64,000 nucleotides of DNA. Source: Swingsia samuiensis. Lineage in GTDB: Bacteria; Pseudomonadota; Alphaproteobacteria; Acetobacterales; Acetobacteraceae. Every line of letters begins with the position of its first letter. The stretch's first letter is position 1. Below the pieces are notes generated by a model. It saw nothing but the letters and a program-made list of their open reading frames with translations, searched no databases and was not told where the DNA came from. Shown here piece by piece: positions 1,729 to 54,035 of this stretch. Made by a program: the position numbers and the translations under genes. Where the stretch lies: the NCBI RefSeq assembly GCF_006542355.1, contig NZ_CP038141.1:777001-841000 (forward strand), given 5' to 3'.

Positions 1729-4215
1729 TTTATCTTTTGTGAGGATCAAATGGAAAGGGCTTTGTTACTACGGTATGAAACGTAGTGACAAAGCCCTTAT
1801 TTCACCATTCTTCGGGTTAGAAAGAAGAACCCTGACGGTTCATTCCCTCTAACGCGAGAGCATCAGAAATCCATTAGGCACTGATGGAAGCAACAGAAGA
1901 GACACTCGCATCTTCTTCAAGAACATACGGACCAGCCGCAAGAACCTGAACACTGAAAAGACTGAAGTCTTTGCCTGTCTTCACAGGGACATACGCATTC
2001 CCCTGCGTCCAACGGCAAGGGCTGGACTCCTGAACATCCCAACCCGACAGATCAGCCTGCTCAAGATGCGCACCAACCTCATGGCGGCTCTGAGCATTCA
2101 GAACAACCATCTCACCAATCAGAACACCCAAGTCACGACGATCATCCACAAACGGACCAACCGCAACCGATGGACGACCAACACGTGAGACCAGACGAAT
2201 ACCATCGGTCTGAGGTGGCAAGCTGAACACAACACGATCATGGCTGTGACGAACGGCCTTCAGAACCTGACCATCCTTCGTCACAAGGTGTAGGTTATGC
2301 TCATGCGTCACCTGACGGTCTGCCGTTTGAGCAGCAACACCAGCCTCAATCGCACGGGCCATCAGACGGTGATAGACAGGCTCAACAAACGCACGGCTGA
2401 CTTCCAATGGAACAGCAGCATCCGAAGCCCAGCTCTTGGCAGAAGCACCAGCCGATAGATCAACAACCTGACCACTTTGTGCAAAGCTACGACGGTTCCC
2501 TGTATCCAGATAGCTTTCTGTCGGAGCATTATTCGCCCAGATCACAGAATGCTCTTCTGTTTCAACATGGTAGTAGTCATAGCTTACAAAGCTGCGATCG
2601 TAGAAGATGCTCCGGCCATTCACCAGCATACGCACAGGAACAAAGCGTCCCTCGACAAACAGGCTGTGCTCTGCCGTGATCAACAGATCCTGACTTGGAA
2701 CATTCTCTCCCAACGCATCCTTAAGAACGCGAACAGGATAGCCTGCATCTTCGTCAGAAGCGGTCACATCAACATCAGCATGCTTGTGGCCAACCCAGGT
2801 CACTGTTTTGGAAACCATCGTTCCACTGACAGCATCCAGTGTCTGCACAACATCACCGATCTTCATCTCTTCAACTGCGGTTTCACCCGATGGCGTGCGG
2901 ATCATGGAGCCCGCCAAGAAGCAGACCTCATAAACCAGTGTGCCATCCTGAACACCGGAACGGTTGTGTGAGGAAACCAGTGAGAAGCCCTGTTTCTTCG
3001 CATTATCAACATTCAGGTTGATGATGGAGCCATTCTTCAGAGCAATCTGAACATGGTTGTCATCAGGGTAGGTGACGCTCTTAACATCAGCCTGTTTAAC
3101 ACCCGCAAGGACGATACCATCCGAATCCCCTCCAGCAGCCTGGGACAGACCAGAGTTCGAACTTTCAGGTTTCGTGCCGTTAAACCCAGTAACGCGGGTT
3201 GTAAATGTACCACCATTTTCAAGACCCGTAATGACAAGACCTGTGTTCTTGTCACCGTTCATGTCAATGATGCCGCCGGCATTCTTATCAACCGTTGCTG
3301 AGCCGCCGCTAACCAGCTGAACCGTGCCGTCAATCGTACCGCCGCTCGAAACCGTCAGAACAGCGCCAGATCCAACCGTCGCACCACTGCTGCCGATCTT
3401 ACCTCCAGAGTTAACGACCATATCGCCGCCAACCATGTAGATATCATCCGACGTACCGCCGCTGTTAACAACGTTATGCCCCTTCGCATTTATGTACGCA
3501 TGGCGCCAGGTCGCACCAGAGTTCAGAGTAATCGTGTTGTCCTTGTTCAGGCCAACACCACTGCCCGTGCTGTCAACAGGGGGGATCGATGACATGGGCG
3601 TGCCATTGTTCCACACTGTATTCTGCAGAATAGCAGAACCACTTGAGCCAACCCACTGCAAGCCATTGGTCGTGCCATTATCATTGGGGCCATTACCAAA
3701 GACTTTGACCGTACCACCGGAAATATTGGTCTGATATAACAGACCACCCGATGAAACCGTCAGAAGCCCGCCACTATCAACCTGACCGCTGGAGAATTTT
3801 GCACCACTGAGGACCGTGACATTACCGCCACTGGCAATTTCACCTGCGCTATGGACACCGTTACTGGTAATCGTTTCAGAGCCTTTAACAAGACCACCTG
3901 AAATCAGACCATCATTTGAAATCACGCCAGACAAAACACCGGCTGAATTCGCAAGGATCTGACCGCCGCTTTGAACAACCGCACTATTAACAGTAGCACC
4001 GGATGAAACATTGACCGTTCCAGCAGAGTGAACAAGGTCATTCTCGGTATACGCACCGCTTTGAAGGTTACGCGTGCCGCCATTCGCAACAGAGCCGCTA
4101 ATCGCAGAACCGCCCGAAAGAATGTTGTCAACACCGTTATTATCAATGCGGCCGTTGCTCACTACCGCACCAGATGAAACATTACGAACAGCACTGTTCG
4201 TAACCCACTGGTCAA
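1729..4215 (-). repeat. Long direct repeat shared with 10176-12662 (copy 1 of 2.49-kb block)
   Basis: The DNA matches 10176-12662 at a constant offset of 8447 with only isolated differences noticed (for example near 2513 and 2597, both synonymous). It covers the terminator, the whole C-terminal half of the Hint gene and part of its repeat region. The match ends abruptly at the shared run ending GGTCAA. The inner part (1754-3479) is also nearly identical to 5062-6787. Confidence 0.93.
1755..1798 (-). terminator. Strong hairpin terminator after Hint gene 1
   Basis: An 18-bp stem (1755-1772 with 1781-1798, one G-T pair) encloses an 8-nt loop, about 75 bp beyond the stop codon. Only a short T-run follows on the minus strand. 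The same element recurs after the other two Hint genes (5063 and 10202), so it is part of the homogenised unit. Confidence 0.75.
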
Positions 4216-4963
4216 CGGTGCGACCTGTGGAACCCACATTTTCGACTGTACCGCTACCATTTACAACCGTACTTGAAATCGTACCGTTATTTACAATAAC
4301 CCCACTTAATACGGAGTCTGGAGTACCACTAATTAAACCACCGGAACTTACACTGATTGGGTCAGAAGATGTTCCATTAACATCCGCTCCCGAATAAACA
4401 TTTAATACAGCACCGGACCAAACGTTAACGCCATTTATTTGGCGCGCACCAGTATAGAGGTTTCGTGTTCCACCCGGACGGATACTCGCACCATCAACAA
4501 GACCACCAGATGAAATATAGTCAACGCCTGAGTTCAATACAGAACCAGCGTTAATTACACCTCCTGCTAAAACTGTACGCTTTCCTCCATTACGAACCCA
4601 CTCATTAAGAGAAGAGCCACCTGGATAAACTGTTTCAGAACCTGTCATCCAGACATAACCAAGAAGGCCGTGGTTCTCAACTTTACCAGTAACAACAGCA
4701 GCAGAACTTGATGGTGCATCATTCGGCAGAGGCTTTCCGCTATCACCATCCAAGTGCCCTGCAGGCGCACTTCCTGAGGCTGCTTCTAGCGTGAGGTTTG
4801 TAATCGTAACGCCAGCATCTTCGTAAACATACCCGCCAGCCAAAATCGTCATATCAGACTGGTCTTCACCCGAGCTTAGCCGGTAGCTCGAATGCACCTT
4901 CTCATTTGGAGGCGTCCCCTTATATTGGCCTGAACTAACAATAAGACCTGAAGTCGTTGTCAT
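1874..4963 (-). CDS. Repeat-rich Hint-domain protein, copy 1 (1029 aa)
   Basis: Residues about 1-600 are low-complexity Gly/Ser/Asn/Val repeats of the type (N/S)SGGxxxx, as in the strand-loop-strand repeats of AIDA-type autotransporter passengers. A globular linker follows, then a Hint domain of the alphaproteobacterial Hint_2 kind starting at C681 (CFLAGSMIRTPSG) with the block-B TxxH motif (ITAEHSLF) and the family signature ESYLDTGNR. About 110 further residues end in SVASISA. No Sec signal, lipobox or beta-barrel translocator is visible, so the export route is unknown. Hint domains catalyse self-cleavage or ester transfer in inteins and hedgehog; activity here is unproven. The start at 4963 has the sequence GGGGGAGTGAAATT before ATG. 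The N-terminal 250 residues resemble copy 2, the rest is almost identical to copy 3. No FNR-like box precedes it. Confidence 0.85.
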   Translation of the reverse strand: MTTTSGLIVSSGQYKGTPPNEKVHSSYRLSSGEDQSDMTILAGGYVYEDAGVTITNLTLEAASGSAPAGHLDGDSGKPLPNDAPSSSAAVVTGKVENHGLLGYVWMTGSETVYPGGSSLNEWVRNGGKRTVLAGGVINAGSVLNSGVDYISSGGLVDGASIRPGGTRNLYTGARQINGVNVWSGAVLNVYSGADVNGTSSDPISVSSGGLISGTPDSVLSGVIVNNGTISSTVVNGSGTVENVGSTGRTVDQWVTNSAVRNVSSGAVVSNGRIDNNGVDNILSGGSAISGSVANGGTRNLQSGAYTENDLVHSAGTVNVSSGATVNSAVVQSGGQILANSAGVLSGVISNDGLISGGLVKGSETITSNGVHSAGEIASGGNVTVLSGAKFSSGQVDSGGLLTVSSGGLLYQTNISGGTVKVFGNGPNDNGTTNGLQWVGSSGSAILQNTVWNNGTPMSSIPPVDSTGSGVGLNKDNTITLNSGATWRHAYINAKGHNVVNSGGTSDDIYMVGGDMVVNSGGKIGSSGATVGSGAVLTVSSGGTIDGTVQLVSGGSATVDKNAGGIIDMNGDKNTGLVITGLENGGTFTTRVTGFNGTKPESSNSGLSQAAGGDSDGIVLAGVKQADVKSVTYPDDNHVQIALKNGSIINLNVDNAKKQGFSLVSSHNRSGVQDGTLVYEVCFLAGSMIRTPSGETAVEEMKIGDVVQTLDAVSGTMVSKTVTWVGHKHADVDVTASDEDAGYPVRVLKDALGENVPSQDLLITAEHSLFVEGRFVPVRMLVNGRSIFYDRSFVSYDYYHVETEEHSVIWANNAPTESYLDTGNRRSFAQSGQVVDLSAGASAKSWASDAAVPLEVSRAFVEPVYHRLMARAIEAGVAAQTADRQVTHEHNLHLVTKDGQVLKAVRHSHDRVVFSLPPQTDGIRLVSRVGRPSVAVGPFVDDRRDLGVLIGEMVVLNAQSRHEVGAHLEQADLSGWDVQESSPCRWTQGNAYVPVKTGKDFSLFSVQVLAAGPYVLEEDASVSSVASISA

Positions 4964-5061
4964 AATTTCACTCCCCCTTGAGGTTCTTTTGCCTTAAACG
5001 TGCCATCTTTCAAAGATTTTCATTACAAAATGTAAAGAGGAATTTTTTTTATAAAATACAA

Positions 5062-6787
5062 AAAGGGCTTTGTTACTACGGTATGAAACGTAGTGACAAA
5101 GCCCTTATTTCACCATTCTTCGGGTTAGAAAGAAGAACCCTGACGGTTCATTCCCTCTAACGCGAGAGCATCAGAAATCCATTAGGCACTGATGGAAGCA
5201 ACAGAAGAGACACTCGCATCTTCTTCAAGAACATACGGACCAGCCGCAAGAACCTGAACACTGAAAAGACTGAAGTCTTTGCCTGTCTTCACAGGGACAT
5301 ACGCATTCCCCTGCGTCCAACGGCAAGGGCTGGACTCCTGAACATCCCAACCCGACAGATCAGCCTGCTCAAGATGCGCACCAACCTCATGGCGGCTCTG
5401 AGCATTCAGAACAACCATCTCACCAATCAGAACACCCAAGTCACGACGATCATCCACAAACGGACCAACCGCAACCGATGGACGACCAACACGTGAGACC
5501 AGACGAATACCATCGGTCTGAGGTGGCAAGCTGAACACAACACGATCATGGCTGTGACGAACGGCCTTCAGAACCTGACCATCCTTCGTCACAAGGTGTA
5601 GGTTATGCTCATGCGTCACCTGACGGTCTGCCGTTTGAGCAGCAACACCAGCCTCAATCGCACGGGCCATCAGACGGTGATAGACAGGCTCAACAAACGC
5701 ACGGCTGACTTCCAATGGAACAGCAGCATCCGAAGCCCAGCTCTTGGCAGAAGCACCAGCCGATAGATCAACAACCTGACCACTTTGTGCAAAGCTACGA
5801 CGGTTCCCTGTATCCAGATAGCTCTCTGTCGGAGCATTATTCGCCCAGATCACAGAATGCTCTTCTGTTTCAACATGGTAGTAGTCATAGCTTACAAAGC
5901 TACGATCGTAGAAGATGCTCCGGCCATTCACCAGCATACGCACAGGAACAAAGCGTCCCTCGACAAACAGGCTGTGCTCTGCCGTGATCAACAGATCCTG
6001 ACTTGGAACATTCTCTCCCAACGCATCCTTAAGAACGCGAACAGGATAGCCTGCATCTTCGTCAGAAGCGGTCACATCAACATCAGCATGCTTGTGGCCA
6101 ACCCAGGTCACTGTTTTGGAAACCATCGTTCCACTGACAGCATCCAGTGTCTGCACAACATCACCGATCTTCATCTCTTCAACTGCGGTTTCACCCGATG
6201 GCGTGCGGATCATGGAGCCCGCCAAGAAGCAGACCTCATAAACCAGTGTGCCATCCTGAACACCGGAACGGTTGTGTGAGGAAACCAGTGAGAAGCCCTG
6301 TTTCTTCGCATTATCAACATTCAGGTTGATGATGGAGCCATTCTTCAGAGCAATCTGAACATGGTTGTCATCAGGGTAGGTGACGCTCTTAACATCAGCC
6401 TGTTTAACACCCGCAAGGACGATACCATCCGAATCCCCTCCAGCAGCCTGGGACAGACCAGAGTTCGAACTTTCAGGTTTCGTGCCGTTAAACCCAGTAA
6501 CGCGGGTTGTAAATGTACCACCATTTTCAAGACCCGTAATGACAAGACCTGTGTTCTTGTCACCGTTCATGTCAATGATGCCGCCGGCATTCTTATCAAC
6601 CGTTGCTGAGCCGCCGCTAACCAGCTGAACCGTGCCGTCAATCGTACCGCCGCTCGAAACCGTCAGAACGGCGCCAGATCCAACCGTCGCACCACTGCTC
6701 CCGATCTTACCTCCAGAGTTAACGACCATATCGCCGCCAACCATGTAGATATCATCCGACGTACCGCCGCTGTTAACAACGTTATGC
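5062..6787 (-). repeat. 1.73-kb near-identical block (copy 2) shared with 1754-3479 and 10201-11926
   Basis: The block spans the terminator and the Hint-encoding C-terminal region. The three copies differ at only a handful of positions that I could spot, and the amino-acid sequence of the C-terminal part is the same in all three. Beyond 6787 the similarity drops to that of diverged repeats. Confidence 0.92.
5063..5106 (-). terminator. Hairpin terminator after Hint gene 2
   Basis: This is the same 18-bp stem and 8-nt loop as at 1755-1798 (arms 5063-5080 and 5089-5106). It lies 75 bp past the stop codon of the second Hint gene and within the short 218-bp spacer before copy 1. Copy 1 must therefore start from a promoter in the remaining 98 bp or from readthrough. 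Confidence 0.75.
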
Positions 6788-9700
6788 GCCGTCGCATTCA
6801 TGTACGCATGGCGCCAGGTCGCACCAGAGTTCAGAATAATCGTGTTGTTCTTGTTCAGGCCATTACCACTGCCCGTGCTGTCAACAGGGGGGATACGTGA
6901 TGGCAAAGATCCATTATCCCAAAGCGTATTATGCAGAACAGCAGAACCATTCGAGCCAGTCCAGTGTAGGCCGTTGGTGACACCATTTGTTTCTGGGCCA
7001 CTGCCGTAAATAACAGCCGTACCACCAGAGATATTTGTCGCAGAGATCAGACCTTGAGAAACTGTAACCAGTCCTCCGCTATCAATCTGACCAGAGACAA
7101 AGGTACCACCACTGGAAACGGTGACCTGACCACCACTAACGACTTCACCTGCGCTATGACGGCCGCCTGAAACAATCGTTTCAGAACCTTTAACAAGACC
7201 GCCTGAAATCAAACCACCATTTGAAATCAAGCCAGAGAAAACACCAGCTGAGTTCGCAAGGATCTGACCGCTCGGCTGGACTAGCCCGCTGTTAACAATC
7301 GCTCCAGAAGCAACATTAACTGTTCCGCCTGAACGAACCTGCGGATCAATATTAACAGCACCAGTCTCTAGGTTACGTACGCCTTGTTCAGCGATTGAAC
7401 CACTGATGGCAACGGCGCCAGAGCGGATATTATCGATACCATTGCTGGAAATTCTGCCGTTGCTTACAACTGCACCAGAAGAAACGTTACGAACGGCACT
7501 CATAGCAACAGCTTGGTCAACCGTCGTTGCACCCGCAGACACACGCTCTACTGATCCTGATCCAAGCAGTGCTGTACCAGAGATTGTTCCCGCGTTTATA
7601 ATCAGACCGCTAAGCGTTGCACCAGTCGTAGCATCTTCCAAGCTGGAAGGACGTGGGCCATTGATCAGACCATTCGATAGAACCGTGTAGCCCTGATCGT
7701 TCGATCCGCTAACAACACCGTGGTAATCAACGTTAACCACCGCGCCAGATGCGACCACACCATTCCGTGCAACACCACCTGAGCTGACCTGCATTTTGCC
7801 GCCGCTCATGTAGATGTTATCGGCTAAACCACCACCAGAAACAGCGATTTGGCCACCGCTCGTAACAATCCCGGAAGTATGAACTGCACCCGAGAAGATT
7901 GTCTCGGAGCCCTTCAGCAGACCACCAGAAACCTGACCACTATTAGCGATATAACCAGACAGAACCGCTGCTGTGTCAGCATTGATCTTACCTGTGCTAT
8001 CCGTAATAGCAGCGTTGCTAACAACAGCACCTGAAGCAGCAACTAATGTACCAGAGGTACGAATAGCTTGGTCAGACGCAAAACCACCAGATTGGATATA
8101 CCGTGTTCCAAGTTGTGAAACGGCACCTGCTACAGCGGATCCTCCTGCAAGAACAGTATCTACACCGTTGCTGATCACAACGCCGTTGCTTACCACTGCA
8201 CCAGAAGAAACTACTCGCGTTGCACCAGCTACCCACTGATCAACAACACGGCCGCCTGATTGAACGCGCTCAACAGAATCGCCACCAACCAGAGCTGTTT
8301 TGGAAATTGTACCCGCATTTGAGAACAACCCGCTTAAGATTGAACCAGAAATGCCATTTCCATCTGCATTGGAGGTGTACTGACCTGAAATGAGTCCGCT
8401 TGATAAAACATTGAAGCTACTATCGGTCGAGCCACTCAGCATTCCGTCAGAAGCAACATTAATAACGGCTCCAGATGCAACCGTTCCGTTCAGAGCGACA
8501 CCACCTGAGTTAACGGCCATATCACCGCCAACCATGTAGATATCTTCAGCGATACCACTGTTATTAACAATGCTATGCGCTGTAGCGTTCATATAAGCAT
8601 GACGCCAGCTACCACCTGAATTCAGGATAATTGTGTTATCCTTGTTCAAGCCGTTACCCGTCCCGGTGCTGTCAACAGGAGGAATAGTAGATGGACGTGC
8701 TCCGTTATTCCAAACCGTGTTGTTTAGAACAGCAGAACCATGTGACCCCGTCCAGTGTAGGCCGTTCGTTACACCGTTATCATCAGGGTTTTTACCGTAG
8801 ATGATGGCTGTGCCACCCGAAATGTTTGTACGGGAGATCAAACCTTGAGAAACAGTGACTAACCCACCGCTATCAATCTGTCCTGATGCAAAGCCACCGC
8901 CACTTAATACCGTGACCTGACCACCACTGGCAACTTCACCACCGCTATGAACACCGCCAGAAACAATGGTTTCAGAGCCTTTAACAAGTCCGCCTGAAAT
9001 CTGACCACTATTCTGAATTGCTCCTGTCAGGATACCAGCAGAATCCGCAACGATACGGCCAGAGGTCTGAACGTTAGCACTATCAACAATAGCACCTGAT
9101 GAAACATTCAGTACACCGTAGCGAACTTGTGGATCCGTATTAACAGCACCGCTTTGAAGATTACGGGTACCATTTTGAGAAATCGCACCAGAAACAGCAG
9201 AACCACCTGCAAGAATGTTATCAACACCCCCGCTGATAATTGTACCGTTGCTGACTACACCGCCAGAAGAAACATTACGGACAGCACTATTCGCAACCCA
9301 CTGGTCAACGATACGACCCGTGGAACCCACATTTTCGACTGTACCGCTACCATTTACAACCGTACTTGAGATCGTACCGTTATTAACAATAACTCCACTT
9401 AATATGGATCCTGAAATACCATTCGTGTTCTGGGTTAAAATACCGCTGATTAAGCCACCAGAACTTACACTGATTGCGTCAGAAGATGTTCCACTGACAT
9501 CCGCTCCCGAAGCAACATTTAATACAGCGCCCGACCAGACATTAACGCCGCCTATTTGATGACCGCCAGCATAAAGATTTCGTATTCCGCCCGGACGGAT
9601 ACTCGCACCATCAACAACACCGCCAGATGAAACATAGTCAATTCCGCCATTTAAAACAGAACCGCCAACTGCCTTACCACCGGATAAAATCGTGCGGCTA

Positions 9701-10068
9701 CCGCCGTTTCTGACCCATACGGTTGTATCACTACCGCCAGAATAAATTGTTTCAGAACCTGTCATCCAGACATAACCAAGAAGACCGTGGTTCTCAACTT
9801 TACCGTTAACAACAGCAGCTGAACTTGAAGGCGCATCATTCGGTAGTAGTTTCCCGCTATCACCATCCAAGTGACCGCCAGGCGCACTTCCTGAGGCTGC
9901 TTCTAGCGTAAGGTTTGTAATCGTAACGCCAGCATCTTCGTAAACATACCCGCCAGCCAAAATCGTCATATCAGACTGGTTTTCACCCGAGCTTAGCCGG
10001 TAGCTCGATTCAATGCCTGAACGTGGAGGCGTCCCCTTAAATTGACCTGAACTAATTGTAATTGCCAT
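5182..10068 (-). CDS. Repeat-rich Hint-domain protein, copy 2 (1628 aa, longest)
   Basis: It has the same architecture as copy 1: strand-loop-strand Gly/Ser repeats over roughly the first 1200 residues, the linker, a Hint domain beginning at C1280, and the identical C-terminus. The repeat region is longer because of internal duplication. A module running from the SETIVSGG...SGGEVASGG type of repeat through TNGLHWTGS, PPVDSTG and WRHAYMNATAH occurs twice. The open frame extends to 10092, but the start at 10068 is preferred because it has the same GGGGGAGTGAAATC-ATG context as its two paralogues. No signal peptide or translocator domain is visible. A perfect TTGAT-N4-ATCAA box lies 84 bp upstream. 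Likely surface or secreted adhesin-like protein by repeat type; function not demonstrated. Confidence 0.85.
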   Translation of the reverse strand: MAITISSGQFKGTPPRSGIESSYRLSSGENQSDMTILAGGYVYEDAGVTITNLTLEAASGSAPGGHLDGDSGKLLPNDAPSSSAAVVNGKVENHGLLGYVWMTGSETIYSGGSDTTVWVRNGGSRTILSGGKAVGGSVLNGGIDYVSSGGVVDGASIRPGGIRNLYAGGHQIGGVNVWSGAVLNVASGADVSGTSSDAISVSSGGLISGILTQNTNGISGSILSGVIVNNGTISSTVVNGSGTVENVGSTGRIVDQWVANSAVRNVSSGGVVSNGTIISGGVDNILAGGSAVSGAISQNGTRNLQSGAVNTDPQVRYGVLNVSSGAIVDSANVQTSGRIVADSAGILTGAIQNSGQISGGLVKGSETIVSGGVHSGGEVASGGQVTVLSGGGFASGQIDSGGLVTVSQGLISRTNISGGTAIIYGKNPDDNGVTNGLHWTGSHGSAVLNNTVWNNGARPSTIPPVDSTGTGNGLNKDNTIILNSGGSWRHAYMNATAHSIVNNSGIAEDIYMVGGDMAVNSGGVALNGTVASGAVINVASDGMLSGSTDSSFNVLSSGLISGQYTSNADGNGISGSILSGLFSNAGTISKTALVGGDSVERVQSGGRVVDQWVAGATRVVSSGAVVSNGVVISNGVDTVLAGGSAVAGAVSQLGTRYIQSGGFASDQAIRTSGTLVAASGAVVSNAAITDSTGKINADTAAVLSGYIANSGQVSGGLLKGSETIFSGAVHTSGIVTSGGQIAVSGGGLADNIYMSGGKMQVSSGGVARNGVVASGAVVNVDYHGVVSGSNDQGYTVLSNGLINGPRPSSLEDATTGATLSGLIINAGTISGTALLGSGSVERVSAGATTVDQAVAMSAVRNVSSGAVVSNGRISSNGIDNIRSGAVAISGSIAEQGVRNLETGAVNIDPQVRSGGTVNVASGAIVNSGLVQPSGQILANSAGVFSGLISNGGLISGGLVKGSETIVSGGRHSAGEVVSGGQVTVSSGGTFVSGQIDSGGLVTVSQGLISATNISGGTAVIYGSGPETNGVTNGLHWTGSNGSAVLHNTLWDNGSLPSRIPPVDSTGSGNGLNKNNTIILNSGATWRHAYMNATAHNVVNSGGTSDDIYMVGGDMVVNSGGKIGSSGATVGSGAVLTVSSGGTIDGTVQLVSGGSATVDKNAGGIIDMNGDKNTGLVITGLENGGTFTTRVTGFNGTKPESSNSGLSQAAGGDSDGIVLAGVKQADVKSVTYPDDNHVQIALKNGSIINLNVDNAKKQGFSLVSSHNRSGVQDGTLVYEVCFLAGSMIRTPSGETAVEEMKIGDVVQTLDAVSGTMVSKTVTWVGHKHADVDVTASDEDAGYPVRVLKDALGENVPSQDLLITAEHSLFVEGRFVPVRMLVNGRSIFYDRSFVSYDYYHVETEEHSVIWANNAPTESYLDTGNRRSFAQSGQVVDLSAGASAKSWASDAAVPLEVSRAFVEPVYHRLMARAIEAGVAAQTADRQVTHEHNLHLVTKDGQVLKAVRHSHDRVVFSLPPQTDGIRLVSRVGRPSVAVGPFVDDRRDLGVLIGEMVVLNAQSRHEVGAHLEQADLSGWDVQESSPCRWTQGNAYVPVKTGKDFSLFSVQVLAAGPYVLEEDASVSSVASISA

Positions 10069-10151
10069 GATTTCACTCCCCCGAAAAATCAATGTTCTTT
10101 ATTTAGAACATGTTGCAAGCACATGATTTCGAATCTTAGATAAAATAATTT

Positions 10152-10165
10152 TTGATATTAATCAA
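10152..10165 (-). promoter_or_regulatory. FNR/FixK-type dyad TTGATATTAATCAA upstream of Hint gene 2
   Basis: It is an exact TTGAT-N4-ATCAA palindrome, the consensus of FNR/ANR/FixK oxygen-responsive regulators. Its near edge is 84 bp upstream of the start codon at 10068. Copy 3 has an equivalent box at the same distance, which argues against chance. Confidence 0.65.
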
Positions 10166-10175
10166 ATGATAACTT

Positions 10176-12662
10176 TTTATCTTTTGTGAGGATCAAATGG
10201 AAAGGGCTTTGTTACTACGGTATGAAACGTAGTGACAAAGCCCTTATTTCACCATTCTTCGGGTTAGAAAGAAGAACCCTGACGGTTCATTCCCTCTAAC
10301 GCGAGAGCATCAGAAATCCATTAGGCACTGATGGAAGCAACAGAAGAGACACTCGCATCTTCTTCAAGAACATACGGACCAGCCGCAAGAACCTGAACAC
10401 TGAAAAGACTGAAGTCTTTGCCTGTCTTCACAGGGACATACGCATTCCCCTGCGTCCAACGGCAAGGGCTGGACTCCTGAACATCCCAACCCGACAGATC
10501 AGCCTGCTCAAGATGCGCACCAACCTCATGGCGGCTCTGAGCATTCAGAACAACCATCTCACCAATCAGAACACCCAAGTCACGACGATCATCCACAAAC
10601 GGACCAACCGCAACCGATGGACGACCAACACGTGAGACCAGACGAATACCATCGGTCTGAGGTGGCAAGCTGAACACAACACGATCATGGCTGTGACGAA
10701 CGGCCTTCAGAACCTGACCATCCTTCGTCACAAGGTGTAGGTTATGCTCATGCGTCACCTGACGGTCTGCCGTTTGAGCAGCAACACCAGCCTCAATCGC
10801 ACGGGCCATCAGACGGTGATAGACAGGCTCAACAAACGCACGGCTGACTTCCAATGGAACAGCAGCATCCGAAGCCCAGCTCTTGGCAGAAGCACCAGCC
10901 GATAGATCAACAACCTGACCACTTTGTGCAAAGCTACGACGGTTCCCTGTATCCAGATAGCTCTCTGTCGGAGCATTATTCGCCCAGATCACAGAATGCT
11001 CTTCTGTTTCAACATGGTAGTAGTCATAGCTTACAAAGCTACGATCGTAGAAGATGCTCCGGCCATTCACCAGCATACGCACAGGAACAAAGCGTCCCTC
11101 GACAAACAGGCTGTGCTCTGCCGTGATCAACAGATCCTGACTTGGAACATTCTCTCCCAACGCATCCTTAAGAACGCGAACAGGATAGCCTGCATCTTCG
11201 TCAGAAGCGGTCACATCAACATCAGCATGCTTGTGGCCAACCCAGGTCACTGTTTTGGAAACCATCGTTCCACTGACAGCATCCAGTGTCTGCACAACAT
11301 CACCGATCTTCATCTCTTCAACTGCGGTTTCACCCGATGGCGTGCGGATCATGGAGCCCGCCAAGAAGCAGACCTCATAAACCAGTGTGCCATCCTGAAC
11401 ACCGGAACGGTTGTGTGAGGAAACCAGTGAGAAGCCCTGTTTCTTCGCATTATCAACATTCAGGTTGATGATGGAGCCATTCTTCAGAGCAATCTGAACA
11501 TGGTTGTCATCAGGGTAGGTGACGCTCTTAACATCAGCCTGTTTAACACCCGCAAGGACGATACCATCCGAATCCCCTCCAGCAGCCTGGGACAGACCAG
11601 AGTTCGAACTTTCAGGTTTCGTGCCGTTAAACCCAGTAACGCGGGTTGTAAATGTACCACCATTTTCAAGACCCGTAATGACAAGACCTGTGTTCTTGTC
11701 ACCGTTCATGTCAATGATGCCGCCGGCATTCTTATCAACCGTTGCTGAGCCGCCGCTAACCAGCTGAACCGTGCCGTCAATCGTACCGCCGCTCGAAACC
11801 GTCAGAACAGCGCCAGATCCAACCGTCGCACCACTGCTGCCGATCTTACCTCCAGAGTTAACGACCATATCGCCGCCAACCATGTAGATATCATCCGACG
11901 TACCGCCGCTGTTAACAACGTTATGCCCCTTCGCATTTATGTACGCATGGCGCCAGGTCGCACCAGAGTTCAGAGTAATCGTGTTGTCCTTGTTCAGGCC
12001 AACACCACTGCCCGTGCTGTCAACAGGGGGGATCGATGACATGGGCGTGCCATTGTTCCACACTGTATTCTGCAGAATAGCAGAACCACTTGAGCCAACC
12101 CACTGCAAGCCATTGGTCGTGCCATTATCATTGGGGCCATTACCAAAGACTTTGACCGTACCACCGGAAATATTGGTCTGATATAACAGACCACCCGATG
12201 AAACCGTCAGAAGCCCGCCACTATCAACCTGACCGCTGGAGAATTTTGCACCACTGAGGACCGTGACATTACCGCCACTGGCAATTTCACCTGCGCTATG
12301 GACACCGTTACTGGTAATCGTTTCAGAGCCTTTAACAAGACCACCTGAAATCAGACCATCATTTGAAATCACGCCAGACAAAACACCGGCTGAATTCGCA
12401 AGGATCTGACCGCCGCTTTGAACAACCGCACTATTAACAGTAGCACCGGATGAAACATTGACCGTTCCAGCAGAGTGAACAAGGTCATTCTCGGTATACG
12501 CACCGCTTTGAAGGTTACGCGTGCCGCCATTCGCAACAGAGCCGCTAATCGCAGAACCGCCCGAAAGAATGTTGTCAACACCGTTATTATCAATGCGGCC
12601 GTTGCTCACTACCGCACCAGATGAAACATTACGAACAGCACTGTTCGTAACCCACTGGTCAA
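10176..12662 (-). repeat. Long direct repeat shared with 1729-4215 (copy 2 of 2.49-kb block)
   Basis: Same block as at 1729-4215. After 12662 the sequence changes at once from the copy-1 sequence, in the shared run ACCCACTGGTCAA, which also occurs in copy 2 near 9298. This marks a probable recombination junction. Confidence 0.93.
10202..10245 (-). terminator. Hairpin terminator after Hint gene 3
   Basis: Third copy of the 18-bp stem/8-nt loop element (arms 10202-10219 and 10228-10245). It separates Hint gene 3 from the promoter region of Hint gene 2 and lies 37 bp from the FNR-like box of copy 2. Confidence 0.75.
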
Positions 12663-14661
12663 TAGCTTTTGCCCCAGCAGAGACCTCTTCTTTAGTACCC
12701 GAACCAGAAAGTGCCGTACCAGAAACAATTCCTGAGTTGACGATTAAGCCACTTAATACTGCACCAGACCCGGCAGCTCCGCTGATAAGACCACTTGAAT
12801 GGATCGTGTAGCCTTTATCGTTCGATCCACTGACAACACCGCCGCTGGCAAGGTTAATAACCGCACCAGAAGCAACATCACCATTGCGAGCAACACCCCC
12901 AGAGTTAACGGCCATATCACCGCCAACCATGTAGATATTATCCGCAGTACCACCACTGTTAACAACGCTGCTGCCGGTAGCGTTCTGGTATGCATTTTTC
13001 CAGGTCGCACCTGAATTCAAGATGATGGTATTGCCACTGTTTAGACCAACGCCGCTTCCTGTGCTTGCAACAGGCGGAACGGTAGAGGAACGAGGGCCAT
13101 TATCCCATACGGTATTCGAAAGATTGGCCGATCCTTTAGAGCCAATCCAGCGAAGTCCATTCGTAGAACCGTTATCATTCGGGCCATTACCAGAAACAGT
13201 AACAGTACCGCCAGAAATACCAGTTTGATAGAGCAGACCGCCGGGGGTAACAATGATCTGCCCTCCGCTGTCTACCTGACCGCTGGAGAATACACCGCCA
13301 CTTGAAACGGTAGCAATCGCACCACTTGAAACGTGAACATTGGAAACAGTACCACCGCTTTCGGTCGCTACAGTTCCGCCACTCGCAATGGTGCCGTTCG
13401 CAAAAGTACCGCCGTTTTGTACAGCTACTTTAGCACCACTGGCAACTTGGCCATTTACAAAAGAACCACTGCTCTGGATGCTGACTTGACCACCACTGGC
13501 AACCTGGCCACCATCATGAACACCACCAGAAGTGATTGATTCCGAGCCTGTTACAATACCGCCTGAAATCAAACCAGTGTTTGAAATCAAACCAGAAAGA
13601 ACAGCGGCTGAATTAGCTAACACTCGACCTGCGCTATTAACGGTAGCACCGTTCACTGTCGCGCCAGAAGAGACCACAAGCGTACCGGATGAACGCACAA
13701 ACTGATCGATACCAGTCGCACCGCTCTGAAGGTTACGCGTACCATCTTTCCAGATAGCACCACTTACCGCAGTAGCCCCTGCGGAAATATTATCAACAGC
13801 TCCGCCGCTCACCGTTCCTCGGGTAACTGTACCGCCAGAAGATACGTTACGCACGGCACTATCTGCCACCCACTGGTCAACAGCGTTAGCGCCCGAAGAA
13901 ATCGTTTCAACAGAACTGCCACCGTAAATGACTGTTCCAGAAACAATACCAGCGTTGTTAATAACACCGCTCAACTTGGCCCCAGAACCAAGAAGATCTG
14001 GCGCACCGGAAGTATTACCGATCATCGGACCGCTAATCACACCGCCCTGAGCAACATTAACGCCGTTGCCGCCGCCAGTGCGACCACTAAGGAGAGACCC
14101 TGATTCAAGATTGATACGACCGCCAGAGGCAATCTTCGTATCAATCTGAGTCGCGCCACCACTTAAAATCCGGGTACCGCCATTCTCCACGTCTGCCGCA
14201 GTAATAACGGCGCCAGACAGGATCTTATCCACACCGCCACTACCAACACCACCCCAAGAAACAGTGGTGCCAGAATATACGGTACGCGTTGCACCAGGGC
14301 CACTGATCCATTGCACGGTAGCACGGGCACCTGGATAAACAGTTTCACTTCCGGCAATTACAACATTTCGAAGATCACCGTAGTTTTCTATTTTACCCGA
14401 TATGATCGACTGCTTACTATCATTCAGATAGTTGGTATCACCATCCAAATGCCCCGGGTCTTTTCCACCAGAAGCTGCATCCAGCGTCAAATTGGTTATA
14501 GATCCGCCGCCATCCAGATAGACATATCCTCCTGGGAGGATTGTCATATCTGTCGCGCTTTCCCCCGAATTCATTCTGTACCCAGATTGAACGCCTGCTG
14601 CTTTTGGCGTCCCTCTATATTGACCAGAACTAATATGCTGACCAGAGCCAACTGAAGCCAT
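10321..14661 (-). CDS. Repeat-rich Hint-domain protein, copy 3 (1446 aa)
   Basis: The protein has about 1000 residues of Gly/Ser/Asn/Val strand-loop-strand repeats, including a tightly periodic patch around residues 390-470 (SGGQVSIQSSG, ASGAKVAVQNGG, ASGGTVATESGG). The linker follows, then the Hint domain from C1098 and the shared C-terminus. Its N-terminus (MASVGSGQHISSGQYRGTP) differs from copies 1 and 2. The start is preceded by GGGGAGTGAATT. A perfect TTGAT-N4-ATCAA box lies 77 bp upstream. It is first in transcription order, but each copy has its own terminator, so the three are probably separate units. No signal peptide or barrel domain is visible. Confidence 0.85.
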   Translation of the reverse strand: MASVGSGQHISSGQYRGTPKAAGVQSGYRMNSGESATDMTILPGGYVYLDGGGSITNLTLDAASGGKDPGHLDGDTNYLNDSKQSIISGKIENYGDLRNVVIAGSETVYPGARATVQWISGPGATRTVYSGTTVSWGGVGSGGVDKILSGAVITAADVENGGTRILSGGATQIDTKIASGGRINLESGSLLSGRTGGGNGVNVAQGGVISGPMIGNTSGAPDLLGSGAKLSGVINNAGIVSGTVIYGGSSVETISSGANAVDQWVADSAVRNVSSGGTVTRGTVSGGAVDNISAGATAVSGAIWKDGTRNLQSGATGIDQFVRSSGTLVVSSGATVNGATVNSAGRVLANSAAVLSGLISNTGLISGGIVTGSESITSGGVHDGGQVASGGQVSIQSSGSFVNGQVASGAKVAVQNGGTFANGTIASGGTVATESGGTVSNVHVSSGAIATVSSGGVFSSGQVDSGGQIIVTPGGLLYQTGISGGTVTVSGNGPNDNGSTNGLRWIGSKGSANLSNTVWDNGPRSSTVPPVASTGSGVGLNSGNTIILNSGATWKNAYQNATGSSVVNSGGTADNIYMVGGDMAVNSGGVARNGDVASGAVINLASGGVVSGSNDKGYTIHSSGLISGAAGSGAVLSGLIVNSGIVSGTALSGSGTKEEVSAGAKAIDQWVTNSAVRNVSSGAVVSNGRIDNNGVDNILSGGSAISGSVANGGTRNLQSGAYTENDLVHSAGTVNVSSGATVNSAVVQSGGQILANSAGVLSGVISNDGLISGGLVKGSETITSNGVHSAGEIASGGNVTVLSGAKFSSGQVDSGGLLTVSSGGLLYQTNISGGTVKVFGNGPNDNGTTNGLQWVGSSGSAILQNTVWNNGTPMSSIPPVDSTGSGVGLNKDNTITLNSGATWRHAYINAKGHNVVNSGGTSDDIYMVGGDMVVNSGGKIGSSGATVGSGAVLTVSSGGTIDGTVQLVSGGSATVDKNAGGIIDMNGDKNTGLVITGLENGGTFTTRVTGFNGTKPESSNSGLSQAAGGDSDGIVLAGVKQADVKSVTYPDDNHVQIALKNGSIINLNVDNAKKQGFSLVSSHNRSGVQDGTLVYEVCFLAGSMIRTPSGETAVEEMKIGDVVQTLDAVSGTMVSKTVTWVGHKHADVDVTASDEDAGYPVRVLKDALGENVPSQDLLITAEHSLFVEGRFVPVRMLVNGRSIFYDRSFVSYDYYHVETEEHSVIWANNAPTESYLDTGNRRSFAQSGQVVDLSAGASAKSWASDAAVPLEVSRAFVEPVYHRLMARAIEAGVAAQTADRQVTHEHNLHLVTKDGQVLKAVRHSHDRVVFSLPPQTDGIRLVSRVGRPSVAVGPFVDDRRDLGVLIGEMVVLNAQSRHEVGAHLEQADLSGWDVQESSPCRWTQGNAYVPVKTGKDFSLFSVQVLAAGPYVLEEDASVSSVASISA

Positions 14662-53126: not shown

Positions 53127-54035
53127 TTAGAATATACCCGTATTAAAATTGACAAACTGTCTGTTTTTTATTTCATCAACACCTGAAACTGCATGATATA
53201 CACTTTCATTTTTTCTAAAATTGTATTTTTTTTCTTTTTTTGTATATAGTTTTTTGTGAATTTTGTTTTCTGCTTCTTCAAATTTATCTTTATTTGTTTG
53301 TTTTTCGAAATATTTAGGAACAGGGCTATTTTTATTAATTTCTAATGGTTTTAATTTTTGTTTTTTCAATACTTTAGAAAAAAGAGTTCCTTTCTGAGAG
53401 GGGATTGGGGTTATGTTATCTGTAAAAGCTAACATATTCCTCTGCTTCGAAATTATCATCCTTTTCAAGCCAGAGCCACTCGGCAAAGAACGATCGCCCT
53501 TCACGCTGGAACCAACCACCAAAGAACGATCGCCCCTCACACTGGAACCAACCACCAAAGAACGATCGCCCCTCACGCTGGAACCAAACGCCAAAGAACG
53601 CTCACCCCTCACGCTAGAACCAACCGTCAAAGAGCGATCGCCCCTCACGCTGGAACCAAACGCCAAAGAGCGATCGTCTCTCACGCTGGAACCAACCACC
53701 AAAGAACGATCGCCCCTCACGCTGGAACCAAACGCCAAAGAACGCTCACCCCTCACGCTAGAACCAACCGTCAAAGAGCGATCGCCCCTCACGCTGGAGC
53801 CAAACGCCAAAGAACGATCGTCTCTCACGCTGGAACCGAACAGCACAGAACGATCACCTTTCATTTGTAGATTTTTATTTCTTTGAAAAATACTTGAAAA
53901 ATAACCACCTAAGACTCCCCCTTCATGTGGAGGAGTTTTTTCAAATTTTCTTATCTTGTAAAATCTTGGTATAAAACGGGAAAAGGAATCAAATTTAAAT
54001 ATTCTAATTTTTGATGTTATTTTATTCTTTACCAT
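53127..54035 (-). CDS. Unusual 302-aa repeat protein in the tape-measure position
   Basis: The frame is open for 302 codons between the tail chaperone and the gpU-like gene, where a tape-measure gene is expected. The first 55 residues are basic. The middle has eleven 12-residue repeats of the form V-R-G-D-R-S-L-x-x-G-S-S. The last 115 are Lys/Asn-rich (KKQKLKPLEINKNSP, KLYTKKEKKYNF). Two flanking phrases (TPPHEGGVLGGYF and TPIPSQKGTLF) read more like translated short repeats than protein domains. It has no coiled-coil or membrane helix like usual tape measures and is much shorter than most. The opposite strand is also open for 157 codons across the repeat because the 36-bp unit is a multiple of three. 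No family recognised. Confidence 0.55.
   Translation of the reverse strand: MVKNKITSKIRIFKFDSFSRFIPRFYKIRKFEKTPPHEGGVLGGYFSSIFQRNKNLQMKGDRSVLFGSSVRDDRSLAFGSSVRGDRSLTVGSSVRGERSLAFGSSVRGDRSLVVGSSVRDDRSLAFGSSVRGDRSLTVGSSVRGERSLAFGSSVRGDRSLVVGSSVRGDRSLVVGSSVKGDRSLPSGSGLKRMIISKQRNMLAFTDNITPIPSQKGTLFSKVLKKQKLKPLEINKNSPVPKYFEKQTNKDKFEEAENKIHKKLYTKKEKKYNFRKNESVYHAVSGVDEIKNRQFVNFNTGIF
53485..53868. repeat. 36-bp minisatellite, 10 full units plus a partial one
   Basis: Units begin AAAGAACGATCG at 53485 and every 36 bp after that, ending with a partial unit at 53845. Variants alternate in order so that units 3-6 are repeated as units 7-10, a 144-bp higher-order repeat. Most units carry CGATCG. It is a coding minisatellite, not a CRISPR array, since there are no unique spacers. 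Confidence 0.92.

Follow-up and report, generated by a model that had tools for sequence, protein, structure and literature searches.

Organization of the Hint gene array

The window, the 64,000-nucleotide stretch of DNA analysed here, contains three large open reading frames on its minus strand, which are transcribed in the order C3, B2, A1 and are separated by gaps of approximately 0.2 kb. In each encoded protein, a passenger rich in Gly, Ser and Val precedes a Hint_2 domain, beyond which the chain continues for about 200 residues. Pfam identified the Hint_2 domain (PF13403) in all three proteins with E-values of 1.4e-32 to 2.9e-32, at 112.5–113.5 bits against a cut-off of 28.4. The genes and their parts are as follows:

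1874–4963, minus strand: A1, 1029 residues, strand-loop-strand β-helix passenger with a Hint_2 C-terminus; a mosaic gene
5182–10068, minus strand: B2, same architecture as A1, 1628 residues from the probable start ATG at 10068
10321–14661, minus strand: C3, same architecture as A1, 1446 residues
2501–2923, minus strand: Hint_2 domain of A1, residues 681–821; no cysteine precedes Cys681 in the protein
5809–6231, minus strand: Hint_2 domain of B2 (Pfam)
10948–11370, minus strand: Hint_2 domain of C3 (Pfam)
1754–1873, minus strand: terminator stretch of A1, a strong hairpin, with copies at 5062–5181 (B2) and 10201–10320 (C3)

A GGGGAG-type ribosome site precedes the start of A1, B2 and C3, each gene having its own start signals. 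The stretch GGGGGAG lies immediately 5′ of the A1 ATG and also before the ATG at 10068 of B2, the reading frame of which, counted from its first TTG, spans 10092–5182 (1636 residues). Sigma-70-like promoter sites were not enriched (11 observed versus 14.7 in shuffles). A hairpin is located 3′ of each stop codon, and that of A1 (1740–1876) folds at −54.8 kcal/mol with a z of −6.47; none of 200 shuffles was equally stable.

The array is flanked by a taurine-dioxygenase-like gene on one side and a luciferase-like monooxygenase gene on the other, the latter with only weak partial matches, in three of six near genomes. In G005, G012 and G022, the three of these genomes that were inspected around mutL, stretches of 18 kb contained no Hint gene. 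The mutL of Neokomagataea tanensis (G011 contig 1, 670449–672295) matches in two pieces, possibly because of a frameshift or an assembly error. A phage origin of A1 was rejected, since the gene had no match among 50,697 phage records. Elsewhere in the window, a 36-bp tandem repeat of about ten copies (53484–53855) lies within an open reading frame on the minus strand (53127–54035) and encodes a 12-residue repeat around GSSVRGDRSL.

Constant 3′ ends and diverged fronts of the genes

The three genes share a constant block at their 3′ ends, and A1 and C3 additionally share a longer tract:

1754–3479, minus strand: constant block of A1, comprising the terminator, C-terminal domain, Hint domain and end of the passenger; two differences from C3 and four from B2, all silent
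5062–6787, minus strand: constant block of B2, in gapless alignment with the A1 and C3 blocks
10201–11926, minus strand: constant block of C3, in gapless alignment with the A1 and B2 blocks
1729–4215, minus strand: A1 side of the tract shared by A1 and C3 only, 2,487 bp with two mismatches against 10176–12662
10176–12662, minus strand: C3 side of the same tract, partner of 1729–4215
4216–4963, minus strand: B2-like front of A1, similar to B2 in the stretches 4324–4546 and 4617–4891

The 1,726-bp block, terminator included, contains four variable positions across the three copies (2516, 2594, 3362 and 3392 in A1 coordinates). All four are silent third-position changes, two of them private to A1 and two to B2. 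The 120 non-coding bases 3′ of the stop codon, which form the terminator, are identical in all three copies, as are 349 of 349 residues of the Hint domain and C-terminus in every pair. An earlier note on this DNA had described three large genes in direct order with Hint C-termini and had placed near-identical blocks at these coordinates, with few and mostly silent changes; its genes and coordinates are correct, and the silence of the changes is complete. Purifying selection was rejected as the cause of the block identity because silent and non-coding sites are fixed as much as the rest.

Sequence beyond the shared ends differs among the three copies, and the lengths of the shared tracts differ by pair. 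The tract common to A1 and C3 is longer than the 1,726-bp block: it adds 25 bp on one side and, on the other, about 740 bp of repeat sequence. Upstream of it, A1 resembles B2, with identities of 89% (4152–4328), 83% (4324–4546) and 93% (4617–4891). A1 is thus a mosaic, identical to C3 downstream of approximately position 4215 and B2-like upstream.

In the non-repeat head (residues 1–95), the proportion of synonymous differences (pS) is 0.77 for A1–C3 and 0.72 for B2–C3, which is saturation, and a moderate 0.27 for A1–B2. The fronts are far more diverged than the block, and least so between A1 and B2. For the Hint domain and C-terminus of the triplet, dS is 0–0.008, compared with 0.35–0.89 for the passengers, a figure that includes the shared tract. 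Misalignment of repeats was rejected as the cause of the high passenger dS, as the non-repeat parts are equally divergent, except in A1–B2. The front of A1–B2 has a dS of 0.25–0.92 and a dN of 0.085–0.30, with dN below dS wherever dS could be measured. Judged from these rates, the fronts of the array do not seem to be hypervariable sequences driven by positive selection.

The longest shared run of A1 and C3 covers 207 variable sites and that of A1 and B2, at the front, 28; neither was equalled in 10,000 shuffles. For B2 and C3, the longest such run comprises five variable sites (35 of 10,000 shuffles were as long), and the 3′ end common to both shows no difference along 1,485 bp, a length not reached in 2,000 shuffles. 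The same holds for the longest identical run in each of the three pairs (0 of 2,000).

Other Hint genes of the genome

The genome of 2.19 Mb, assembled in two contigs, contains eleven Hint_2 genes, nine of which form three tandem triplets, A (the array described above), D and E. In the D triplet (620.5–629 kb), dS is 0.004–0.052 in the Hint domain and C-terminus and 1.6–1.8 in the passenger, and the non-repeat N-terminal domain has a pS of 0.64–0.74. In the E triplet (889.9–895.9 kb), the corresponding dS values are 0.26–0.46 and 0.7–2.3. The permutation test gave runs of 35 variable sites for D1–D2 and 46 for D2–D3 (0 of 10,000 shuffles as long for both), 14 for E1–E3 (0) and 8 for E1–E2 (19); the inner runs of D1–D3 (5; 4075 shuffles as long) and E2–E3 (9; 1551) were not significant. 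The split between a conserved end and a diverged front recurs in D and E, with the strongest evidence in A, good evidence in D and weaker evidence in E. The identity of the ends grades from A to D to E, and the E triplet is much less homogenised than A.

The C-termini of different loci are only 32–52% identical in the seven pairs compared, therefore homogenisation acts within one locus. In the tree, the A triplet and the D triplet each form one fully supported group. The tree, which was used for this grouping only, covers 28 loci, seven of them without a row, contains one row (L031) that is a false motif pick, leaves out the E genes and the Hint gene H, and has mostly open deep branches. Searched against the whole genome, the A1 protein produced 18 matches at E ≤ 0.001. 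Every one of them falls within the eleven Hint genes, and no silent donor was seen at this threshold.

Beside the E triplet, radA consists of two adjacent open reading frames (L026 4497–5890, genome 888496–889889), whereas five relatives have a single one of 466–468 residues. The split could stem from an indel error or mean that this recombination gene is broken, and is of interest next to arrays with putative gene conversion.

Probable exchange of 3′ ends between neighbouring genes

Sequence comparison gives good support to recombination between the constant ends, either by gene conversion, as the earlier note had proposed, or by unequal crossover. This reading follows from the contrast between a dS close to zero in the block and high or saturated values in the fronts, the inclusion of the non-coding terminator, the pair-specific breakpoints with their shared runs beyond those of shuffles and the mosaic A1, and the similar pattern at other loci. 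In a single genome of one strain, repeated conversion and a few recent transfers look alike.

Had the whole gene been triplicated in tandem once and recently, with the passengers alone diverging very fast and no later exchange, the constant ends would also be near identical, as just after a duplication, and repeats can change quickly. However, non-repeat synonymous sites are near saturation in the heads (0.72–0.77) and in the D domain (0.64–0.74) next to a dS of about zero, and protein-level selection cannot yield such divergence in that time. The mosaic A1, B2-like upstream and C3-identical downstream of position 4215, is a second point against triplication, which is largely contradicted, and we consider it improbable. 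In the pairwise alignment of the three loci, the ends resemble each other at synonymous and non-coding sites more than the divergence of their flanks would allow.

The constant ends could alternatively be recombination sites that shuffle expressed passengers in a programmed manner resembling antigenic variation. Constant ends, distinct fronts and the mosaic A1 are compatible with such shuffling, and, in an excerpt of PMC10936683, clones of Bartonella quintana are described as losing members of a tandem adhesin family that has a conserved part. The earlier note had similarly pictured an exchangeable set of variants. The analysis does not support that picture: A1 has no match outside the eleven Hint genes at E ≤ 0.001, all three genes are open with their own start signals, dN is below dS where measurable, and the two genes flanking the array are not recombinases according to Pfam. 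We regard programmed variation as unlikely.

Assembling long tandem repeats that are nearly identical is difficult, and reads merged from similar copies during assembly or polishing could exaggerate the likeness of the 3′ ends; the two open reading frames of radA could be an indel error of the same assembly. Nevertheless, A1 and B2 each retain two private silent differences, tract lengths and downstream sequence differ between copies, identity is graded from A to D to E, and the genome is in two contigs. An artefact is very unlikely. The genes might also encode polymorphic toxins of the MafB/CDI type, with an intein-like domain before a variable toxic tip, and intein-like domains are mentioned for such toxins. 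This is barely conceivable, because the part after the Hint domain is conserved across relatives and not variable, and immunity genes would not fit into the intergenic gaps of about 0.2 kb.

Hint genes in related genomes

The number of Hint proteins per genome ranges from 2 to 17 in the 25 genomes counted (this one and 24 of the same genus; 206 of the 210 matches in the relatives were counted after four fragments had been dropped, plus the eleven of this genome), and others are located on plasmids. In the 24 relatives, Hint genes are mostly single and dispersed, in contrast to nine of eleven in tandem triplets here. Among the 206 matches were three same-strand pairs less than 6.5 kb apart and two opposite-strand pairs. 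The Hint ends of the three same-strand pairs are not homogenised (66% identity over 203 bp, 71% over 333 bp and 76% over 76 bp). At the E locus, the five of the 24 same-genus relatives that were looked at (G005, G008, G011, G012 and G022) have a single Hint gene, flanked by radA and a glycosyltransferase gene, versus three here.

Among 85 pooled loci, some representing the same place twice, 13 had more than one match, and in ten of the 13 there were same-strand pairs no more than 6 kb apart. Such pairs are 66–75% identical over 91–612 bp of Hint DNA, with unalignable pairs and pieces of one broken gene set aside. The exception is a pair of Acetobacter farinalis with 86% identity over 1,014 bp of Hint DNA and also 86% upstream. 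Two dispersed Hint genes on a plasmid of N. tanensis (L156 and L157, G011 contig 2, NZ_CP032486.1) share 1.6 kb at 86% identity, the last 173 bp being identical, and IS6 transposase genes lie nearby. By its sequence, this pair suggests that exchange of ends may not be unique to the genome studied. The absence of homogenised arrays in relatives is a weakly tested observation, because draft assemblies break or collapse repeats, and the 24 assemblies comprise two contigs in one case, about ten in three and more in the rest.

The 40 genomes searched included no second strain of the species, and the best A1 matches were 51–53% identical over the Hint region. A scan of the genome contigs with A1 alone returned no relative; the profile scan gave 506 loci, of which the best 80 were kept. 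On pCAMU, a Commensalibacter melissae plasmid of 10.7 kb, a single Hint gene takes up 4.5 kb (L075 1665–6185). In plasmid records, the products are usually named 'Hint domain-containing protein', and some 'outer membrane protein'.

Passenger and Hint domain

The only solved relative of the passenger found by sequence is TibA (4q1q), with an E-value of 9.1e-8. The passenger model, calculated from four window sequences, is all-β with a pLDDT of 77. Foldseek gave eight matches at E ≤ 0.001, namely six chains of Ag43, TibA and 4kh3, the title of which refers to a bacterial self-associating protein; TM-scores to Ag43 and TibA are low, 0.18–0.29 by query length. The NCBIfam models NF033176 (AIDA-I) and TIGR04415 (a repeat) were matched below their cut-offs. 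None of the 6,424 passenger residues of the eleven Hint proteins is a cysteine, compared with 35 of 3,352 in their Hint domains and C-termini; 32 hand-picked window reading frames of 51 provide a background of 113 in 12,192. A1, B2 and C3 have no hydrophobic stretch at the N-terminus, and hence no obvious Sec signal peptide as judged by hydropathy, and Pfam detected no autotransporter barrel family in them. Sequence and predicted fold agree with the earlier suggestion of surface or secreted products, in that the proteins look like adhesins of the Ag43/TibA type.

The constant C-terminus of 349 residues begins with the Hint domain, and the domain of about 200 residues that follows it is conserved in relatives. 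The Hint model is of moderate quality (pLDDT 71.7, pTM 0.52). Its fold search ranked bacterial intein-like (BIL) structures first (6y75, 6tmm and 2lwy; E-values of 1.2e-5 to 4.7e-4) and inteins next, with hedgehog 1at0 at rank 27 (E 0.023). All 23 aligned rows, which represent the window and 22 of the best 80 of 506 loci, one row with stops being left out, share the N-terminal Cys and a T-x-E-H block without variation; the E-type proteins of this genome have S-P-L-H in place of T-x-E-H. Splicing inteins end in adjacent His-Asn, and such an end is not evident in the Hint alignment. The modelled Hint fold, the N-terminal Cys and the TxxH indicate that the domain is possibly self-cutting.

Heptosyltransferases and candidate exporters

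TibA and AIDA-I are heptosylated before export. The TibC-type heptosyltransferase family TIGR04414 was detected above its cut-off in this genome, which has two such genes, neither near a Hint gene, and in 20 of the 24 same-genus genomes. Counts of heptosyltransferase and Hint genes per same-genus genome correlate with a Spearman coefficient of 0.69, which ignores kinship and is weakened by shared ancestry. Genomes without the enzyme have 8, 3, 3 and 2 Hint genes versus 5–17 in those with it (p 0.015, with genomes that are not independent); one genome without heptosyltransferase thus still holds eight. Of the 41 heptosyltransferase matches over the cut-off, seven are within 5 kb of a Hint gene (about 1.5 expected) and 19 within 15 kb (about 4.4 expected). 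That TibC-type enzymes, whose genes lie away from the array, heptosylate the passengers is supported by association only. TibC acts on both TibA and AIDA-I, as stated in an excerpt of PMC4358343.

No exporter gene adjoins the A array, and Pfam gave no match to RTX nonapeptides in its proteins. A C39-type exporter with HlyD is encoded about 33 kb from the array. An HlyB/HlyD-like pair at about 1.23 Mb, some 450 kb away, is a candidate exporter for the Hint proteins, its HlyB-like gene being below the cut-off of its model. At this locus (L072 4515–12990, genome 1232514–1240989), genes for an HlyB-like ABC protein, HlyD, a Sel1-repeat protein and a 983-residue protein with a glycosyltransferase domain lie in a row. 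The C39-type exporter belongs to a second locus (L025 1419–7203, genome 742418–748202), which contains an HlyD-like gene, the C39-peptidase ABC exporter and a 130-residue product, followed by the Hint gene H, so that a bacteriocin-type exporter lies beside a Hint protein. The start of the 130-residue product resembles a double-glycine leader.

Proposed origin and function of the array

Based on the sequences and models, an origin and a function of the array can be proposed. A Hint gene would have been duplicated in tandem at its locus. Neighbouring copies would then recombine through their homology, by gene conversion or unequal crossover, and so overwrite one another's 3′ ends and terminators, while the passengers, too diverged for full copying, would evolve apart. 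The passenger may be heptosylated before export, and the protein may leave the cell without Sec through a type I-like exporter. Cleavage before the Hint cysteine would free or tether the passenger, which could serve in adhesion or self-association. We consider it likely that the array belongs to a member of the Gluconobacter/Neokomagataea group of acetic acid bacteria and consists of tandem adhesin-like Hint proteins, secreted or at the surface, the 3′ ends of which are recopied between neighbours while the fronts drift apart. Homogenisation would be what tandem homology gives once the fronts have diverged, and a benefit of matched processing ends is possible.

By analogy, the constant Hint ends might form a shared docking and processing module. 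The Hint domain would cleave itself off after export in a hedgehog-like transfer of the heptosylated β-helix to a nucleophile of the envelope, for example hopanoid or a surface sugar; conversion would keep the copies at a locus matched to one partner, and the passengers would diversify as a multi-adhesin coat. We give this speculation little credence; if true, it would be a barrel-free way of anchoring a self-associating adhesin.

Comparison with known systems

No paper on these Hint proteins as a family was found in a search that did not extend to subscription journals and preprints; an excerpt of PMC11999647 lists one mutated Hint protein, described there as 'of unknown function'. The domains and the evolutionary process are known, and their combination and repetition were not found described. 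The analysis offers a concrete architecture, in which a passenger like that of Ag43 or TibA is joined to a possible self-processing end without a barrel, and a genetic link of Hint genes to heptosyltransferases, which opens export, processing and the tempo of conversion to testing.

The proteins resemble the self-associating autotransporters (SAATs) Ag43, AIDA-I and TibA, described with BAHT heptosyltransferases in an excerpt of PMC4358343, in the strand-loop-strand β-helix passenger, by sequence and fold, and in the presence of TIGR04414 enzymes in the same genome. They differ from SAATs in lacking an obvious Sec signal peptide and an autotransporter barrel, in place of which they have the Hint and conserved C-terminal domains. 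They share the fold, the N-terminal Cys and the T-x-E-H block with BIL and hedgehog Hint domains; however, here the Hint domain sits behind a β-helix adhesin-like part and ahead of a conserved domain of about 200 residues. Unlike RTX or type I secretion substrates, the proteins of the array show no RTX nonapeptides in Pfam and have no exporter genes beside them.

In the vomp locus of B. quintana, genes for surface adhesins likewise stand in tandem and combine a conserved with a variable part. In the excerpt of PMC10936683, however, vomp genes encode trimeric autotransporters, their conserved region is at the 5′ end, and gene loss was seen in clones. Antigenic-variation cassette loci differ in their silent donor copies, which were not found for A1 at E ≤ 0.001. 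Further counterparts are the PF13403 'Hint domain-containing proteins' of acetic acid bacteria, which have the same Hint and C-terminal region and also occur on plasmids. Unlike the mostly single, dispersed genes of the 24 relatives, those described here stand in tandem triplets, and one small genome displays three such sets at different stages of 3′-end exchange.
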